From assembly GCF_000210915.2 (NCBI RefSeq), contig NC_016620.1, positions 1,178,001-1,242,000 of the forward strand: a stretch of 64,000 nt of DNA, in the 5' to 3' direction. Both the position numbers and the translations under genes were made by a program. Of this stretch, positions 11,644 through 21,571 are shown in pieces (the stretch's first letter is position 1; every line of letters starts with the position of its first letter). Source of the stretch: Halobacteriovorax marinus SJ (GTDB taxonomy: Bacteria; Bdellovibrionota; Bacteriovoracia; Bacteriovoracales; Bacteriovoracaceae). The notes beneath the pieces are model-generated. The model searched no databases. It saw nothing but the letters and a program-made list of their open reading frames with translations, and was not told the DNA's origin.

Positions 11644-13218
11644 TTATGCGGCTCTCTTGCCGTTTACTAATTCCCTAACTTCTTCCACTACATAAATAAG
11701 ATCATCTGCTTCTTTTTGAAGCTCCTTAGAAGAGGCTTCAGTACTGATGACTACGTCATTATTCTTGTGAGAAACTTGATCTAGTAGCTCCATTGCTCTA
11801 GAGATTTCATCAACACCTTGAGATTGTTCCTTAGAGGCACTTGCAATCTCTGCAACCTTTCTATTGACGTTATCTACGTTATTAATAATTTCATCTAAAA
11901 CAACTTTACACTCTTGTGCTCTTTCTTTGCCTTTAGATACAGCTCTCTTACCGTCTTCAATCATTTTTTCCATCACTGAGGTTGTACTTGAAACGATACC
12001 TTCAACTTTGGCCATACTATTTTCGATAAGCTCTCTAATTTCTTCAGAGGCATTCCCCGACATATTAGCGAGTGCACCAACTTCTTCTGCAACAACTGCG
12101 AATCCTTTTCCTGATTCTCCAGCTCTTGCCGCTTCAACTGAAGCATTGAAAGAGAGAAGCTTCGTTTGAAAAACAATATCATTAATGACTTTAGTCTTAT
12201 CGTTAATATTTTTAATGATATTTAAAATCTCTGTTACTTCGTCATTTGTTTGCTGCATTCTCTTAATAACATTATCATTATTGCTCGCAATCTCATCTAT
12301 TGTCGTAACCATTTCGTCGACTCTATTTTTTCCATTGCTGGCAGATCTTTGAGACTCAAGAGAAGTCGTCTTTGACTCTTCAGCTGAAGTCGCATTTCGA
12401 GAGATCATGGCATTTATTTCTTCTACTGAAGAAACTGTCTCCTGAAGACTCGCTGCTTGTTCTTGACTTGAACTGGCAAGGTGCTCACAATTTCTCAAGC
12501 TATCCTTTGCTCCTTTTGCAACCTCTTCTGATGTTGAGAATAATTTATTGGCAATATTTAAAAGAGGCTCACGAATATTCTTTCTAACGATTAATGTTAC
12601 TGCAATAACCAAAATGACCATCGCAATTGTAACTTTAATTGAGTCTTCAATTAGGATAGAGGTAATTGTTGCCTGAACGTCTTGAATGTAGATACCTGTT
12701 CCAAGAACCCAGTCCCATTCCTTATTGTATTGAACGTAAGATAGTTTAGGGACAAATTTATTCTTATCCTTCTTGTCATTCCAAATATATTGAACGAATC
12801 CTGAGCCGTTTGCTTTTGCAATATCACTAAATTGAACAAAGATATGAGACCCTGCTTTATCTTTGAACTCTGCCATATTCTTTCCAACCAGTGCAGCACT
12901 AGGGTGAGAGACCATGACAGGAGTAGTATCATTTATCCAAAGATAGTCATCTCCGTCTTGTCCGTAGCGAATTTTTGAAATAGATTTTGCTGCAAGCTCT
13001 TTTGCTCTTGCTTCAGTAAGTTCTCCACTTTTAACTTTCTCTTGGTACTCTTTAATAACATCCATTGCCGTTTGAGTAACAAATTGAATTGATAATCTCT
13101 TTTCGCGCATTAAATTTTTAGATGTATTTTCATAAGAAGAGTAGATCGAAAAACCAGCAAAGAGAATAAACGGTACTACTACGATGAGTAGAATTTTTTG
13201 TCCTATATTTAATTTCAT
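11644..13218 (-). CDS. Methyl-accepting chemotaxis protein with one Cache domain
   Basis: This is a transmembrane chemoreceptor. A first membrane helix (about residues 8-26) is followed by a periplasmic single Cache (sCache_2) domain at about 35-185, marked by [17 protein letters not shown] and [12 protein letters not shown] second membrane helix is at about 193-212, then the cytoplasmic signalling domain to residue 524. The hairpin tip that contacts CheA/CheW is visible as [20 protein letters not shown] canonical HAMP domain is not obvious between helix two and the signalling helices. It is a single gene, with no che genes beside it; related Cache domains bind small organic acids, but the ligand here is unknown. 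Confidence 0.92.
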
Positions 13219-13303
13219 GAAGAACCTCCATGAATCTTTTCGGAAATGATTTATCTCATGTAACTCAATTTAATCTAAAGATATTAATAAAAGATTAATG
13301 AAA

Positions 13304-13326
13304 GGCACTATTTGGGTCATAGTGCC
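13304..13326 (-). terminator. Terminator of the FecR/CHASE2 operon
   Basis: GGCACTAT and ATAGTGCC form an exact 8-base stem with a 7-base loop, 10 bases past the cyclase stop. On the minus strand it is followed by TTTCATTAATCTTTTATT. Confidence 0.7.
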
Positions 13327-13335
13327 TAGAATTCA

Positions 13336-15567
13336 TTATTTTGATGTTAGTGTGAAGACTCCATCCCAATTCGGAGGAGGTGGAAGTTCCTTAAATTGTT
13401 CACATCTTTCAATATAAATCTTGGAAGGATTTGTTTTTTCTTTTAAGAGAGGAAAGCGCTCAAGTTCTAGCTCAAGTGACTCCTTAAAGCAGGCGAGGGC
13501 CTGATCCCACTCCTGCGCCTTGTAGTGAGAGATACCTTTACTAAAGATTTCTTGAAGTTTAATCAAGAGATCACTCGCGTCTTCTTTGATCTCTAGTATT
13601 TCGTAAGTTGTAACTGGCTCTGACTTCCCAACAACTCTAATCGTATCAAGTTCTCTATAGAGAAATTGCTCGCTTTGACAATCTTCCATTGTAAACTTTG
13701 ATGTCTGTGTGAAGATACCATATTGCTTGGCTGCCTCTTCAAGTCTAGCGGCCAGGTTCACAGAGTCTCCCATCATTGTGTAATTCATTCTAGATGCTGA
13801 ACCCATATTACCCGTAACGATTTCACCGGTATTAATACCGATTCTCATTCTCATTTCATGCACGATCTGTGGCCACTTATCTCCCTCTGAAACCCACTTT
13901 TCTCTAAGAACTAGAAGAGCTCTCTGCATTTTAACAGCAACTCTCAGGGCCCTTGTAGAGTGGTCCTCTAGAGGCATTGGTGCACCAAAGAAGGCTATGA
14001 TGGCATCTCCCTCATACTTGTCGAGCGTTCCTTTCTCTTCAAGGAGAATGTCAGTCATCGCAGTAAGATATTCATTGAGAAGTTCAACGAGTTGTGTGGC
14101 GCTAAGCTTTTCTGAGAAAGTAGAGAAACTTTGGATATCAGTAAAGAAGGCCGTTCTTGTTCCACTATCTCCACCAAGAGAAGGGTGCTGTCCTGTAGAG
14201 TACATTTCGTCGATGAGTTCAGGTGAGATATAGGAACCAAATGCATTCTTTAAGAACGCCTTATCTTTATTTGCGAGGTAGAAGTGGAGGAAAGTATTCC
14301 ACGAGTAACTACAAATAATAGAGAAGAAACAGAAGAAGAGTTTTACTTCATATCCCTGTGGTATGAGATGGTAAGTATCGTAATAATAAATTCCTCCAAT
14401 AATGAAAATAGTTGAGAGTAAATCAAGTATTGGATTACCAAAGAATTGAATAATGAGAATGATTAGTGATCCACCTATGAGGATCGCCCATGAAAGAAAG
14501 GTTGAGTTTTGCTGAGGTTTATAGAAATGACCATTTAACAGCATGTGAGTCATATTCATGTGAAAGTAAACCCCTGGTAACATCGGATCAACAGGAGTGT
14601 GTCTAAGGTCGTAAGCACCATAGGCACTGGCCCCTACAAAGACGATCGTATTATTGAAGATCTCTTTCATATTCTCATCTTCGGGATAGGCCTTCACAAT
14701 ATCAGCAATACTAACTCTTGGAAATTGTCTCTCATTTCCAAACCAGCGAACATTTGCTTCACCTTTGTAATTGAGTTCAATATTTCCTGAAGCCAATTTA
14801 AATTTATAATCTCCTATATTGAGCATTTCTAGAACAGGACTATCTCCCGTATAATCGATATAGGCCTGGAGCCCATAAGATGGCATATATAGAGTGTCTA
14901 TATTTCCAACTAATTGGTAGTGCCTCATGATCCCATCACTATCGGCCTCTACTTGAATATGTCCTAGACTAACGTCTGTGTTTAGAAGTGTTTCTATTGG
15001 CCATACGGCTTTTGATACCTTCTTAGGCTTAAGTTCTATTCCTTCACTATTCTTTGTATCTAAGACAAAGTTATAAAGCTGATCGGGCATCTCTTCAAAG
15101 TGATCAGCTCCCTGAGTATCTAGGGAGTAGGGAAGAATAACTTTATTACCTGGAATCGATTGAAAGTTAACAATCGATTGGGCCATGATGTCATCAACAG
15201 AAGTTTCTCCACAGCTCATACTATTTTCAGCAAAGAAAACGTCGAAGGCTATAACTTTTGCTCCATAGATTCTTAGCTTATCAATGACGTTGGCCCAAGT
15301 TTGTCTTCCTACTGGCCATTGTCCAAGTTCTTTCAGTGAGTAATCATCAATATCTGCCATGACAAGTTTCTTATCAAACTTCTTAGGATCTAGGGTCTGT
15401 CTCATTCTGAAGTCGAAGAAACGATTCTCAAAGAAAGTAGTATAAGAAATTTTCTCTTTTATTCTAGGGTCTTCAATATCTCTCTCTGTAAGTGAGAAGA
15501 AAACACTTAGCGCAGAGAAAGATATAATAATAATGAAGCCTAGGTATTTTATGATTTTTGACAGCAT
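13336..15567 (-). CDS. CHASE2-domain adenylate/guanylate cyclase
   Basis: This membrane receptor is predicted to make a cyclic nucleotide in response to an extracytoplasmic signal. After an N-terminal membrane helix (about 8-26) comes a periplasmic CHASE2 domain to about residue 350, with the typical KLVMADIDDYSLKELGQWP and IVFVGASAYGAYDLR segments. Three closely spaced membrane helices follow (about 360-440), then a class III cyclase catalytic domain: metal-binding Asp in FFTDIQSFS (about 477) and DKYEGDAIIAFFG about 44 residues later. The last ~90 residues look like a short TPR-type helical tail. It is the third gene of the FecR operon, 18 bases after the TPR/barrel gene. ATP versus GTP preference is not settled by eye. 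Confidence 0.92.
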   Translation of the reverse strand: MLSKIIKYLGFIIIISFSALSVFFSLTERDIEDPRIKEKISYTTFFENRFFDFRMRQTLDPKKFDKKLVMADIDDYSLKELGQWPVGRQTWANVIDKLRIYGAKVIAFDVFFAENSMSCGETSVDDIMAQSIVNFQSIPGNKVILPYSLDTQGADHFEEMPDQLYNFVLDTKNSEGIELKPKKVSKAVWPIETLLNTDVSLGHIQVEADSDGIMRHYQLVGNIDTLYMPSYGLQAYIDYTGDSPVLEMLNIGDYKFKLASGNIELNYKGEANVRWFGNERQFPRVSIADIVKAYPEDENMKEIFNNTIVFVGASAYGAYDLRHTPVDPMLPGVYFHMNMTHMLLNGHFYKPQQNSTFLSWAILIGGSLIILIIQFFGNPILDLLSTIFIIGGIYYYDTYHLIPQGYEVKLFFCFFSIICSYSWNTFLHFYLANKDKAFLKNAFGSYISPELIDEMYSTGQHPSLGGDSGTRTAFFTDIQSFSTFSEKLSATQLVELLNEYLTAMTDILLEEKGTLDKYEGDAIIAFFGAPMPLEDHSTRALRVAVKMQRALLVLREKWVSEGDKWPQIVHEMRMRIGINTGEIVTGNMGSASRMNYTMMGDSVNLAARLEEAAKQYGIFTQTSKFTMEDCQSEQFLYRELDTIRVVGKSEPVTTYEILEIKEDASDLLIKLQEIFSKGISHYKAQEWDQALACFKESLELELERFPLLKEKTNPSKIYIERCEQFKELPPPPNWDGVFTLTSK

Positions 15568-15585
15568 AAAAAACCTTTCACCTAT

Positions 15586-17169
15586 TTAGAAGGTGTATTT
15601 AAGTGATGAAGATGTTACGTGCTTTGTATAGTCGTAATCAGCTTTTAGTGAAGTGTTCTTTGTATAATTATAACCAACAGAGAATTTCAATTTATCATTG
15701 ATTTTCTTAGTGAGTTTTATACTTGGAGTTATTGTTTTCTCTGTTCCTCTTACTGAACTTTCATTTGCATCAGTATAGCTAACAAAAGTTACAGATGCTC
15801 CCACATGGAGAGTGATTTTTGGAAGAATATTTGGCTTGATATAATCAACTCTAAGCAGTGTCGAGTTGGTTGCGTTCTTCGGGTTATTATAAGTATCTAA
15901 TGAGTCATAAGAGAGGAGAAACATATAAATTGATGAACTCGAAGTTAAATAGAGTTGATCAACTGAAAAAGACTTCGTCTTACTAAAGAGTGTACTTGTA
16001 TGAGAGCTTAAATCTTTATATTTAAATTTTAGCGATGTATCACCCTTAGAGAAGAACTTAAACTTCTCACCAATTGTATAAGTCGTAGAACGTGAGTAGA
16101 AGGCCTTCCTCTGCATCGCCGTATTATACTTACTATTGTAGTTGTAATCGATATTAAAGAATAACGATGCTGGCTTATTAAATGCCTTGTGCTCAAAAGA
16201 AGTATTTAGCGATGGTGAGATATCATAATTATCTTCCGACTTTACAGTCTCAGCATCTCTATTGGTATGGCTCTTAAGACTCATATTGAGCTCAGGGTTT
16301 ATAATAAACCTCTTATTTACTATAAAGTCATAACCTGCACGCATTTTAGTTTTAAAAACAAAAGACTCCTCTCTAGACGCTGCTGAAGAGGGGAGATCAT
16401 TTGTAAGAGAAATATTACTATCGTGATTTAAGTCCTGAGTGAAAGAAAGGTTCCATCTCTTTGATGAAATTCTCTTACCGTTATATAGAATATTTGGATC
16501 TAGCCCAAATTCTCTTTCGATTTCTTTCTTTCTAGATTTAATCTCTCTAGCAAGAGAAGAAGTCGTATCGACTTCATAGGCCTTATCCATCTGAGGAAGA
16601 ACGAATTGCTTTACGAGCCTCTGCGTATCTTCATTCTCTCTGGCCATTCCCAGTAAGACTTCACCAATTTGAAAACGTGCAACTTGCTTAAGTGCAGTAT
16701 CGGCCGTGTCTGAGTTTAGTATTTGAGTATAATAGGCCTTAGCTGTTTTATTCTCTTCTAGGATTTGTGATACGTGAGCGACATAGTAAATAGAAGAGTC
16801 TTTCTTATAGTTAAGATCTGCTGATTTTTTAAAAGCGATTCTTGCTTTGGTTAAATCATTATTGGCATAGAGTGCTTGTCCGTACTCATAGTAAATATCT
16901 TCGGCTACACTTTTGGCCTTGATGGCCTCAATAAAGTAGGGGATTGCCTTATCATAATTTTGTAATCGATTGTGGGAAAGTGCCATAAGATAATTTCTCG
17001 TGGCACGATTGGATTTTGTTTCTTTTAAAGTTGAAAGGCCCTCTAAGACTTGAGCGTAGGAGCCCTTTTGAAATAATTCTAATGATGATTTTATAACTCT
17101 ACTTTCTTTTGCAGAAATATTAGAAGTTAAAATAAAAGTAGATAATATAAGTGCACAGCTCTTTTTCAT
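15586..17169 (-). CDS. Exported TPR plus outer-membrane beta-barrel protein
   Basis: A signal peptide (to about residue 20, ISA|KES) leads into TPR-like helical repeats at about 25-190 (for example NRLQNYDKAIPYFIEAIKA and YYEYGQALYANNDLTKARIA). From about residue 230 to the end the sequence alternates polar and hydrophobic residues in many short strands with aromatic girdles and ends in Phe (SLKYTF), the sign of an outer-membrane barrel. A TPR domain before a barrel resembles the Slam/DUF560 architecture, but I cannot show homology. It sits between a FecR-domain protein and a CHASE2 cyclase, so it may form the outer-membrane part of a sensing device. Role unknown. Confidence 0.75.
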   Translation of the reverse strand: MKKSCALILSTFILTSNISAKESRVIKSSLELFQKGSYAQVLEGLSTLKETKSNRATRNYLMALSHNRLQNYDKAIPYFIEAIKAKSVAEDIYYEYGQALYANNDLTKARIAFKKSADLNYKKDSSIYYVAHVSQILEENKTAKAYYTQILNSDTADTALKQVARFQIGEVLLGMARENEDTQRLVKQFVLPQMDKAYEVDTTSSLAREIKSRKKEIEREFGLDPNILYNGKRISSKRWNLSFTQDLNHDSNISLTNDLPSSAASREESFVFKTKMRAGYDFIVNKRFIINPELNMSLKSHTNRDAETVKSEDNYDISPSLNTSFEHKAFNKPASLFFNIDYNYNSKYNTAMQRKAFYSRSTTYTIGEKFKFFSKGDTSLKFKYKDLSSHTSTLFSKTKSFSVDQLYLTSSSSIYMFLLSYDSLDTYNNPKNATNSTLLRVDYIKPNILPKITLHVGASVTFVSYTDANESSVRGTEKTITPSIKLTKKINDKLKFSVGYNYTKNTSLKADYDYTKHVTSSSLKYTF

Positions 17170-17232
17170 TGGGCCAAATCCATTTAACCTAAATTATTAA
17201 TATTAGTGACTTATATTATAACTAAATTTCCT

Positions 17233-18699
17233 CTAATTAGAATTATTAATATTAAATCTTACCCGAGTACTATTGTTGAGTACTTCGTTTCTTTCATCTT
17301 CTGCATCTTCAATTGTCTCTTCAATTGTATCTTGCGCATCTTCAACGATCTCATCTAATTCTGACTGATCTACACCTGCAAAGTCTGCAGGGGAGTCAGA
17401 AGGTGCATCACTACCGCCAAAGTCGTCACCTCCACCAATATCATCAGCAATCTCTGGTTCAATTGGCTTATCAAGTGGCGCTAGTTCTGGGGGAGCATTT
17501 CCTCCTCCATCTACACCACCTTCAGATGGTGCAGGTCCTGATCCATCAACACTTGCAGGTGCTCTGTCTGGACTTTCTGTAGGAACAAATTTCCCATCAT
17601 CAGTCAGAGTGTAATTTGTATTTTCATAGGCACCAGTGTCTGGATTGAATCCTCCAAAATCCGCTGGTGGAATATAAGTCTCTGTTGCGGCATCAAATAC
17701 TGATCCTGCTGGAGGAGCAATATATTGTGCTGTTGCAACGTCAATATATCCACCTGCTGGAGGAGCAATTTCACCCGTTGAAGCATTTACCGAACCTTCA
17801 GGTGGAGGAGCATTCTCAGCACTAGCAGCTTTTTCTTTTTCTACTTTATCTACAACAGCAATTGTTGCACTTTTTCCTAGTACCTTTTCAACTTGCTCTG
17901 CAACTTTTGCTTTATTTGAGAAACCTTTTGCATCTACCCCTGGAGGGATAACACTTCTAAATTTCTTCTTCGGTGCTTTCGTTGCAGCAGCTTGGTCTGG
18001 AGCTTCTTTAGAACCATCGTTTGACTTCATTGACTCTAATTGACCAGGGTTGATCTTTACAGGAGTCGTTGCTCTTGATGTTTTCCCTGGAGATACACCT
18101 GAGAATTGACCCTTTGTCACAATAACGGCTTTATCACTTGAAACAACTTTTTCAAGAGCTGCCTGTGAAACTTGGATATTTCTAATATTCTCTGTGATCT
18201 GTGCCATAGCAACTGCACCAGAGAATGTTACAAGAGCAGTATTTTCGTTTACCGGGTTAAAGGTAACCATAAAGTCTGTCCCTCTAACACCCATGGCAGC
18301 TGTTTTCGTTTTAATGAATAGCTTTGATTTATCTTTATTTTTATTGTCGAGGTAGTTCTTAGTCACCTTAGATCTAAGAGAACCTTTCATAAGAGTAATA
18401 ATACCTGCGTCTTTCTTTGGGAATTTACTAATGGCCATTTCTGATTTTGGACCTAAGTTCATTTGTGATTTATCTATAAAGAGAAATTTTACAAAAGACT
18501 TTGGCTCAGTCTTAACTACAAAACCTTCTTGTACCCAAGAGCCTTTCTTTAGCTTTGTTTCTTCTTTTGTCTTTGGGTTAACGGCAGTAACACTTCCTTT
18601 TAGAATGATTGCCTTAGCGACACCGTCACTTGCATGTGCCGGAATGCTCATGGAGATTACAATAGCTGTTGTTAGTAGAAGTTTTCTCAAAAAGTTCAT
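17233..18699 (-). CDS. FecR-domain protein with proline-rich repeat tail
   Basis: A signal peptide (residues 1-23, PAHA|SDG) precedes a FecR domain at about 30-160, recognisable from KLKKGSWVQEGFVVKT, KSEMAISKF and KTKTAAMGVRGTDFMV. FecR domains of this free type are periplasmic and often partner CHASE2 cyclases and TPR proteins. From about residue 290 a degenerate repeat of about 16 residues appears (cores IAPPAGGYIDVATAQY and IAPPAGSVFDAATETY, then a weaker copy), followed by an acidic tail rich in Asp, Gly, Pro and Glu. It is the first gene of the three-gene operon and 488 residues long. The tail may be a flexible stalk in the periplasm. Confidence 0.85.
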   Translation of the reverse strand: MNFLRKLLLTTAIVISMSIPAHASDGVAKAIILKGSVTAVNPKTKEETKLKKGSWVQEGFVVKTEPKSFVKFLFIDKSQMNLGPKSEMAISKFPKKDAGIITLMKGSLRSKVTKNYLDNKNKDKSKLFIKTKTAAMGVRGTDFMVTFNPVNENTALVTFSGAVAMAQITENIRNIQVSQAALEKVVSSDKAVIVTKGQFSGVSPGKTSRATTPVKINPGQLESMKSNDGSKEAPDQAAATKAPKKKFRSVIPPGVDAKGFSNKAKVAEQVEKVLGKSATIAVVDKVEKEKAASAENAPPPEGSVNASTGEIAPPAGGYIDVATAQYIAPPAGSVFDAATETYIPPADFGGFNPDTGAYENTNYTLTDDGKFVPTESPDRAPASVDGSGPAPSEGGVDGGGNAPPELAPLDKPIEPEIADDIGGGDDFGGSDAPSDSPADFAGVDQSELDEIVEDAQDTIEETIEDAEDERNEVLNNSTRVRFNINNSN

Positions 18700-18760: not shown

Positions 18761-18823
18761 TCGTTAAACTTGAGAGAGTTTATTTAGATGGGAAAAGTGA
18801 ATTTAACTTCTTGAAAATACTTA

Positions 18824-18856
18824 GGCACAAAAAAAGCATTGCGAATTTTTTGTGCC
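18824..18856 (-). terminator. Terminator after the ArsC/YfgD-like gene
   Basis: GGCACAAAAAA and TTTTTTGTGCC form an exact 11-base stem with an 11-base loop. Its distance from the reductase stop (14 bases) and the built-in A/T runs make it usable from either strand. Confidence 0.7.
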
Positions 18857-18869
18857 ATATGATTGGTAA

Positions 18870-20677: not shown

Positions 20678-21571
20678 ATGCTTGAAAATCTTAAACAAAA
20701 CTTTGTGGACCATGTGCGTCACTTGCAGAATCTAATAACTGAGGAAATTAAGAAAATTGATCCTTCAATTGAGATTATAGAGGACAATTGGAAGAGAAAA
20801 GACTTCAACGATAACGATGGTGGGGGCGGTATTACAAGGGCCTTTCAAGGTGAAGTCATAGAGAATGCCGGTGTTAATACTTCTGTTGTATACGGTGCAA
20901 TCGCTCCAGACTTTGCAAAGAAGATTGGCAGTACAAATGAGACTATGTGGGCAACGGGAATCTCACTTATTATTCATCCTAGAAATCCTAAGGTTCCTAC
21001 TACGCATGCCAATTTTAGAATGATTCAAGCTGGCGATAAATTCTGGTTCGGTGGTGGTGCTGACTTAACTCCTTACTATCCTCATACTGAGGACTTTAAG
21101 TACTTTCACCAAGTTTGGGCCGATGCTTGTAAACCTTATGGGAATTATGAAGAGTTTAAAGTTAAGTGTGATAATTACTTTGTAAATAAACATAGAGAAA
21201 ATGAAATGAGAGGAGTGGGAGGAATTTTCTTTGACCACTTCAACACTGGAGATACGGAGAGTGATTTGGCGATGGTTAAAGATCTTTCAAATTACTTTAT
21301 AAAGTCTTTCTTTCCAATTGTTGAAAAGAGAGTAAACGAAGACTTCACTGCTGAGGACGAAGACTTTCAACTTCATAGACGTGGTCGTTATGTTGAGTTC
21401 AACCTTCTTCACGATAGAGGAACAATGTTCGGTCTCCAAAGTAATGGTAGAACTGACTCTATTCTTATTTCGCTTCCAGGGCGTGTGAAGTACAGCTATA
21501 AGTATGCGCCAAAAGATGGATCTCCCCATGCGGAAATGATGAAGTATTACTACCCAATGAACTGGGTTTAA
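20678..21571 (+). CDS. hemF: Oxygen-dependent coproporphyrinogen III oxidase
   Basis: HemF decarboxylates coproporphyrinogen III to protoporphyrinogen IX with molecular oxygen in heme synthesis; it is a cytosolic dimer. Conserved family blocks are clear: HANFRMIQ, WFGGGADLTPYYPH (about 127-140), GVGGIFFDHF (about 180-189) and RRGRYVEFNLLHDRGTMFGLQSNGR (split here by eye into the RGRYVEFNLL and DRGTMFGL cores). Length 297 matches E. coli HemF (299). The ribosome site TAAGGTAA precedes the ATG. It stands as a single gene with its own terminator and shows that the organism makes heme aerobically, which fits the many c-type cytochromes here. Confidence 0.96.
   Translation: MLENLKQNFVDHVRHLQNLITEEIKKIDPSIEIIEDNWKRKDFNDNDGGGGITRAFQGEVIENAGVNTSVVYGAIAPDFAKKIGSTNETMWATGISLIIHPRNPKVPTTHANFRMIQAGDKFWFGGGADLTPYYPHTEDFKYFHQVWADACKPYGNYEEFKVKCDNYFVNKHRENEMRGVGGIFFDHFNTGDTESDLAMVKDLSNYFIKSFFPIVEKRVNEDFTAEDEDFQLHRRGRYVEFNLLHDRGTMFGLQSNGRTDSILISLPGRVKYSYKYAPKDGSPHAEMMKYYYPMNWV

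Follow-up and report, generated by a model that had tools for sequence, protein, structure and literature searches.

The 64,000-nucleotide stretch of the Halobacteriovorax marinus SJ genome analyzed here (positions 1178001-1242000 of contig C1, in a genome of 3,437,906 bases and two contigs; hereafter the window, to which coordinates refer unless a locus or contig is named) carries three adjacent genes on its minus strand, encoding a FecR-domain protein, a tetratricopeptide repeat (TPR) protein with a predicted outer-membrane barrel, and a CHASE2 class III cyclase. On balance, we consider it probable that the three products work together as a receptor cyclase that spans the envelope and is a split version of the NsrA-CyaK system of Sinorhizobium meliloti. 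A sequence-only reading had described three co-oriented genes with short gaps, and the open reading frames (ORFs) confirm this layout: from 5’ to 3’, the FecR gene (18699-17233) is followed after 63 bp by the TPR-barrel gene (17169-15586) and after a further 18 bp by the cyclase gene (15567-13336). The assignment of a FecR-domain protein and a CHASE2 cyclase was likewise upheld by Pfam. The features of this operon-like run are as follows (aa, amino acids).

17233..18699, minus strand: FecR-domain protein, 488 aa (PF04773, E 7.9e-11), with a Sec-type signal peptide by eye; predicted periplasmic.
18211..18516, minus strand: FecR domain, residues 62-163 (Pfam, above cut-off).
17614..17811, minus strand: repeat block of PPxG...FDxxTxxY units of ~16 residues, near residues 297-362 (alignment of 24 FecR proteins).
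17551..17565, minus strand: RxPAS motif, R379-S383, within an otherwise variable tail (motif count).
17245..17268, minus strand: C-terminal strand-like motif TRVRFNIN (strand pattern within the final 14 residues of homologues).
15586..17169, minus strand: predicted TPR and outer-membrane barrel protein, 527 aa (AlphaFold2 model, fold matches).
16510..17058, minus strand: predicted TPR solenoid, residues 38-220 (AlphaFold2 model; YrrB, Z 18.1, 184 residues aligned).
15592..16455, minus strand: predicted 14-strand barrel, residues 239-526 (AlphaFold2 model; CymA and OmpG fold matches).
13336..15567, minus strand: CHASE2 class III cyclase, 743 aa, predicted adenylyl, with a weak C-terminal TPR-like stretch.
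14464..15438, minus strand: CHASE2 domain, residues 44-368 (PF05226, E 5e-46).
13600..14154, minus strand: cyclase catalytic domain, residues 472-656 (PF00211, Guanylate_cyc, E 2.8e-23).

In the TPR-barrel protein, Pfam recognized TPR_16 above its cut-off (E 3.8e-8) and OMP_b-brl below threshold (E 6e-4). An AlphaFold2 model built from 6 sequences (mean pLDDT 82.9, pTM 0.53) places TPR helices at residues 38-220 and 14 strands at residues 239-526. CymA and OmpG are 14-strand porins, and the barrel part of the model aligned with both (CymA, Z 19.7, 280 residues aligned, 4.7 Å; OmpG, Z 18.8, 261 residues aligned, 4.3 Å), while the TPR part aligned with YrrB and MamA. The model is thus consistent with the earlier suggestion that the TPR protein ends in a barrel. 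No TonB-dependent receptor family was found among its Pfam matches to E 0.1, and the modeled barrel has 14 strands that follow the TPRs.

Class III cyclases rely on a metal-binding Asp pair, a base-recognizing Lys/Thr pair and an Asn/Arg pair that stabilizes the transition state. All three are present in the window cyclase, as D477/D521, K517/T597 and N604/R608, and the six residues are invariant in an alignment of 20 cyclase sequences. Since the catalytic domain also aligned with the solved cyclase PaCyaB (E 7.9e-32), the enzyme is predicted to be an adenylyl cyclase, with cyclic AMP (cAMP) as its most likely product. It is the sole PF00211 match of the genome at a threshold of E 0.001. The cyclase profile hit 54 solved sequences, and in none of them does the best-matching stretch include the CHASE2 part.

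Candidate readers of cAMP are encoded in the same genome, which has eight matches to cyclic-nucleotide-binding (cNMP-binding) domains, six of them with the GE...R phosphate-binding pattern by eye. One of these six, L014 (C1:1694910-1695158), is a channel-like protein by eye and a possible cAMP effector. In Bdellovibrio, a relative, a c-di-GMP phosphodiesterase is activated by cAMP and cGMP (PMC6717892).

The closest characterized parallel is in S. meliloti, where CyaD1, CyaD2 and CyaK (SMb20776) are receptor-like cyclases (PMC5498481). NsrA is an outer-membrane receptor with a barrel at residues 600-1200, perception of signal 1 requires both NsrA and CyaK, and uL2 is a candidate ligand for NsrA (PMC7529298). 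We found one CHASE2 match on pSymB, in a 649-aa cyclase ORF whose first base is the last base of an upstream 1219-aa ORF. The latter has a FecR domain at residues 85-179 (E 2.3e-15) and several TPR families above cut-off at about residues 397-606, and is taken to be NsrA from its place, its size and the published barrel region, the sequence record carrying no annotation. The window cyclase aligned with CyaK over CHASE2 and the catalytic domain (hhalign, E 4.2e-65), and the two FecR domains aligned with E 5.5e-6. Both systems combine FecR, TPRs and an outer-membrane barrel (modeled in the window protein), directly followed by a CHASE2 class III cyclase, and the domain order of NsrA equals the gene order of the window. 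They differ in that S. meliloti has one 1219-aa protein where the window has two ORFs 63 bp apart, and that a candidate ligand, uL2, has been published for the S. meliloti receptor only. As FecR and barrel lie in two ORFs, we refer to the window operon as a split variant that would work like NsrA, not as NsrA itself.

Recurrence of the trio was assessed in 39 family loci with the primary cyclase (the window and L049-L086), hand-picked for spread among the matches; in the source pool, 246 of 290 phylum genomes matched at E 1e-20, many of the matches not being orthologues. The arrangement FecR, barrel, cyclase occurred in one order and orientation in 23 of the 39 loci, the window included, and this constancy suggests more than chance. 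Gaps in these 23 loci were 18-135 bp between FecR and barrel and 3-26 bp between barrel and cyclase. Two loci (L054, L064) had barrel and cyclase without FecR, and in one (L066) the FecR-barrel pair was convergent with the cyclase. In other families, L087 has the order cyclase, FecR, barrel, and in L096, of a third family, the pair is convergent with an 881-aa cyclase. At two second-copy loci within the window's own family, FecR and barrel are fused in a single ORF that diverges from a CHASE2 cyclase (716 aa in L107, 728 aa in L108), with an additional TPR protein following in L107.

A set of 80 loci was also read. Of these, 12 of 25 from Fidelibacterota and 1 of 2 from Balneolota have FecR, a barrel-like ORF of 856-995 aa and a cyclase in line, and 3 of 6 from Verrucomicrobiota have FecR downstream of the cyclase. 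The Fidelibacterota middle proteins were considered as true barrels and not accepted as such: Pfam returned nothing for two of three scanned and OMP_b-brl at 0.016 for the third, and eight of them scored z 1.0 to 3.8 in an amphipathic-strand count in which a long presumed non-barrel also reached 3.3. Because of this weak Pfam signal and unspecific strand count, we term them barrel-like only. At L148:2559-5025 (Nitrospinota), a FecR gene, a 565-aa ORF resembling a two-partner-secretion exoprotein by eye and a CHASE2 cyclase lie in line.

In the FecR protein, the FecR domain alone lies above the Pfam cut-off, and no cytoplasmic anti-sigma part was found. Its tail, which the sequence-only reading had taken to be simply proline-rich and flexible, carries conserved elements: across 24 homologues the PPxG block, RxPAS and a C-terminal strand are kept between linkers of variable length, with some rows deviating. 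The repeat block is least conserved in L055, L057, L065 and L083 and is also present, by eye, in both FecR-barrel fusions. Strict R.PAS was found in 20 of 25 cyclase-linked versus 2 of 16 unlinked FecR proteins, a lead for the CHASE2 side that is confounded by ancestry.

Of 45 FecR proteins adjoining a TPR-barrel gene, 41 show the C-terminal strand pattern within their final 14 residues (27 of 28 with a cyclase nearby and 14 of 17 without; identical sequences were dropped, near relatives included and the L107 fusion excluded). In its permissive form, the pattern is weak as such, because it also occurs at 30% of 1563 other ORF ends. The explanation that it is a chance ORF end is countered by the 41 of 45, by its absence, in all 45 proteins, from both of the 14-residue stretches that come before, and by the sequence likeness in the 24-protein alignment. 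In a broader comparison, the pattern was present in 55 of 59 FecR proteins with a barrel-like neighbour (an ORF of >500 aa with F, Y or W as its final residue) versus 1 of 12 without (p 6e-9, the species not being independent); these counts were hand-corrected, with the L108 fusion removed, L148 reassigned to no barrel, L165 reassigned to barrel, and L159 left out. Since the strand persists without a cyclase and the barrel takes its place in the fusions, it more likely docks on the barrel protein than on CHASE2. The same genome encodes two further long FecR proteins on C1: one of 1002 aa that matches SusE and, more weakly, Ig-like families (L114:5650-8658), and one of 613 aa with FecR as its sole recognized domain (L110:5234-7075).

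Co-variation across 25 loci set the catalytic domain apart from the sensor parts. Pairwise identities of CHASE2, FecR, TPR and barrel intercorrelated at 0.79-0.85, and the same sensor-part identities correlated with those of the catalytic domain at 0.31-0.39. The catalytic domain is of two far-apart types, with 0.76-0.93 or 0.39-0.43 identity to that of the window, separated in quick trees by a very long branch (SH-aLRT 100); L069-L077 and L083 differ from the window in this domain under the same CHASE2/FecR/barrel set. The sensor trees require 2 or 3 type changes, of which the starred branches force only 1, the long rows being unsurely placed. The simplest reading is a single exchange of catalytic output beneath a stable sensor.

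We propose the following mechanism. The TPR-barrel protein would reside in the outer membrane, the TPR domain pointing into the periplasm, as the model suggests. The FecR protein, secreted to the periplasm, would be tied to it through the conserved C-terminal strand, and the FecR domain, on the repeat block and variable linker, would extend in the direction of CHASE2, which lies in the periplasm. Ligand binding, occupancy, an envelope change or some other event at the barrel could then shift the FecR domain and alter cyclase activity. The resulting cAMP, predicted from the active-site residues, may be read by several of the cNMP-binding proteins present in the genome. More tentatively, and with odds we place clearly below even, the FecR-barrel pair may be a reusable outer-membrane reporter. 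In such a reporter, the C-terminal strand would hold the FecR protein on the barrel, and the FecR domain would be free to signal the state of the barrel, whether to a CHASE2 cyclase or, in paralogues, jointly with a large lipoprotein of the surface. In other phyla, the same logic would have arisen with unrelated barrel-like proteins.

Several observations weigh against the receptor proposal. The cyclase lacks an adjacent FecR-barrel pair in 13 of the 39 family loci. All 13 of these genomes have a TPR-barrel homologue elsewhere (interrupted in G239, cut by a contig end in G257), and the possibility that they keep the true partner at a distance was rejected because the barrel tree does not show it, these being mostly paralogues: of 18 unlinked barrels, 15 belong to a largely separate group that also holds the linked L066 and L087 (two pieces of <450 aa, L196 and L215, were omitted). 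Among the unlinked pairs, 10 of 20, from nine genera, adjoin a large lipobox ORF, versus 1 of 27 linked pairs. The AlphaFold2 model of the FecR protein, on 6 sequences, had a pLDDT of 43, and nothing was drawn from it. The barrel of the window showed no detectable homology to that of NsrA, the alignment yielding only a 57-column TPR stretch at 1% probability. The two catalytic types may stem from a single exchange. Finally, the separate S. meliloti FecR gene smc02177, which adjoins CyaD1 (SMc02176) judging by tag number, is a cAMP/Clr target dispensable for perception of the plant signal, as is the Clr-activated TPR gene smb20495; the smc02177 mutant is hyperinfecting, and the authors leave its role in further signals open (PMC5498481).

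Together, the lone cyclases and the lipoprotein-flanked paralogue pairs speak against an obligate three-part machine, and the FecR-barrel pair also has a life without the cyclase. The envelope-spanning sensor envisaged by the sequence-only reading is partly supported: the barrel model, the NsrA-CyaK domain order and the L107 and L108 fusions speak for it, the flexible tail was not retained, and the lone cyclases, lipoprotein-flanked paralogues and dispensable smc02177 count against it. In a hand tally of 129 genomes, 102 had both cyclase and barrel, 8 the cyclase only, 9 the barrel only and 10 neither (p 9e-6, paralogues included and relatedness ignored); the 10 with neither include four from a single genus, as well as some genomes of small size.

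A gene of 297 aa near the operon (20678-21571) has homologues of 63-68% identity in seven family loci, where they are directly divergent from the lone cyclase (L078, L079, L080, L082, L084, L085, L086). Its position beside lone cyclases suggests one chromosomal site from which FecR and barrel were lost or moved.

The first rival explanation, which we regard as rather unlikely, holds that FecR and the TPR-barrel protein are a unit of their own for export or display at the outer membrane, resembling Slam or BcsC and PelB, with a cyclase that only controls it or is co-expressed. Slam proteins consist of periplasmic TPRs and a 14-strand outer-membrane barrel, a layout that matches the modeled protein, and TPR_Slam appeared below threshold in two homologues (L059, E 0.073; L087, E 0.067). 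By whole-chain Foldseek, the best matches were BcsC (E 7e-10) and PelB (E 1e-8), which likewise have periplasmic TPRs fused to an outer-membrane barrel, with TM-scores of 0.27-0.36. The lipobox ORFs beside unlinked pairs also favour this explanation, the background for lipobox ORFs of at least 250 aa being 5% of 949 ORFs. Their rule was widened after the sequences had been seen, a first, stricter rule giving 9 of 20 and 1 of 27, and the 20 unlinked loci include L208 and L213, cut by contig ends, and the degenerate L215. The flanking proteins are 297-781 aa long (L197, L198, L199, L200, L202, L203, L206, L207, L211, L214), and the five scanned (L198, L202, L203, L207, L214) had no Pfam family above cut-off. 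Given the lone cyclases and the lipobox-flanked pairs, FecR and barrel may serve export or display and have been wired to the cyclase in some lineages; that smc02177 is a cAMP target and no perception gene for the signal tested points the same way.

Against an export unit, no lipobox ORF flanks the window operon, no polysaccharide synthase was spotted by eye among its neighbours, and SlipAM was found neither among the Pfam matches to E 0.1 nor in the genome, although the control was equally silent. Perception depends on NsrA, which has the same domains, and CHASE2 identities track those of FecR and barrel. Slam, BcsC and PelB differ from the proposed receptor in being exporters, and Slam (type XI secretion) further differs in that the window operon has no adjoining lipoprotein gene, a lipobox ORF being found at half of the unlinked paralogues. 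We know of no FecR or CHASE2 partner of Slam, BcsC or PelB.

It is improbable that CHASE2 alone senses a periplasmic or membrane cue, with FecR and barrel as ancillary proteins joined to it by chance and co-regulation. The 13 lone cyclases would fit such an arrangement, as would the other-family loci L087-L106, where FecR lies near the cyclase in only 3 of 20 (L087, L096, L097), though the family-specific profile may miss distant FecR. The trio is nevertheless adjacent in three families and recurs with unrelated barrel-like genes in Fidelibacterota and Balneolota, and both the fusions beside a cyclase and the NsrA genetics speak against it. Least likely is a feedback arrangement, with the operon under the control of cAMP and with FecR and barrel acting as surface outputs or dampers, not as receivers; the Clr activation and dispensability of smc02177 and smb20495 would allow it, and the need for NsrA in perception speaks against it.

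Were the receptor cyclase borne out, it would hint at how a predatory bacterium could convert an outer-membrane event into cAMP, and would join NsrA-CyaK, the Campylobacterota cluster described below and the present family into one scheme. What CHASE2 domains sense is described as unknown (PMC5192318); if FecR-barrel units are the receiving end, three genes would be enough to put CHASE2 sensing to the test, in a genome that has a single PF00211 cyclase. A reusable reporter, if it holds, would be a general class of signalling from the outer to the inner membrane beside FecA-FecR-FecI, with an exchangeable catalytic output.

The putative operon is bounded by two hairpins, neither of which was listed in a simple terminator scan.

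13290..13330, minus strand: terminator-like hairpin 3’ of the cyclase gene (-13.1 kcal/mol, z -4.8).
18806..18862, minus strand: hairpin 3’ of the upstream arsC-like gene, setting that gene apart from the operon (-13.8 kcal/mol, z -2.75; 2 of 200 shuffles fold equally well).

A promoter scan returned 12 sites, fewer than the 19.3 in shuffles; a TATAAT at 18760-18755, 56 bases upstream of the FecR start, was seen by eye and is absent from the scan list. Four neighbours were scanned with Pfam, giving a methyl-accepting chemotaxis protein (MCP), an ArsC-like protein, a 236-aa protein without family and a DUF3943 protein. A Cache-domain chemoreceptor lies on the same strand at 11644-13218, downstream of the cyclase past the terminator-like hairpin. 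The second CHASE2 protein of the genome (L109:5280-7172, C1) is a histidine kinase by eye, followed by an NtrC-like response regulator, and no FecR match was found within the 14 kb read around it. Relatives of the window cyclase were found in Halobacteriovorax sp. (L116, 63% identity) and other Bacteriovoracaceae, the nearest being L121 at 90% identity, with still nearer records possibly omitted; in a plasmid search, every one of 491 records was below 60% identity.

In the FecA-FecR-FecI system, the FecR domain lies between an outer-membrane barrel and the inner membrane, a placement shared with our proposal. The window system differs in that no TonB-dependent receptor, cytoplasmic anti-sigma part or sigma factor was found (the last looked for by Pfam among the four scanned neighbours), and in having a cyclase as output. 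In magnetotactic bacteria, the gene of the TPR-containing protein MtxA is likewise followed by a CHASE2 adenylate cyclase gene, the protein having an Ig-like domain in place of the barrel of the window protein (PMC4439547); the word FecR is absent from the text of that paper. The BiofilmReg operon of Burkholderia resembles the window operon in that a FecR-protein gene adjoins a CHASE2 receptor gene, and differs in its LysM-FecR protein and histidine kinase output (PMC5192318). In Campylobacterota, the gene of a CHASE2 adenylate cyclase clusters with those of a FecR and a TPR protein; most of these clusters also hold a cAMP phosphodiesterase gene, of which Pfam found none among the four scanned neighbours of the window operon, and section 9 of that paper does not state a barrel on the TPR protein (PMC9239204). 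The same paper was the only one found to contain both NsrA and FecR, NsrA appearing once, in its reference list. A literature search, which covered listings and selected passages and had most subscription journals outside its reach, found no report of the three-gene form in Bdellovibrionota. As far as the available texts go, the cluster of FecR, TPR and CHASE2-cyclase genes is already published for Campylobacterota, and its three-gene form in Bdellovibrionota is a new variant.

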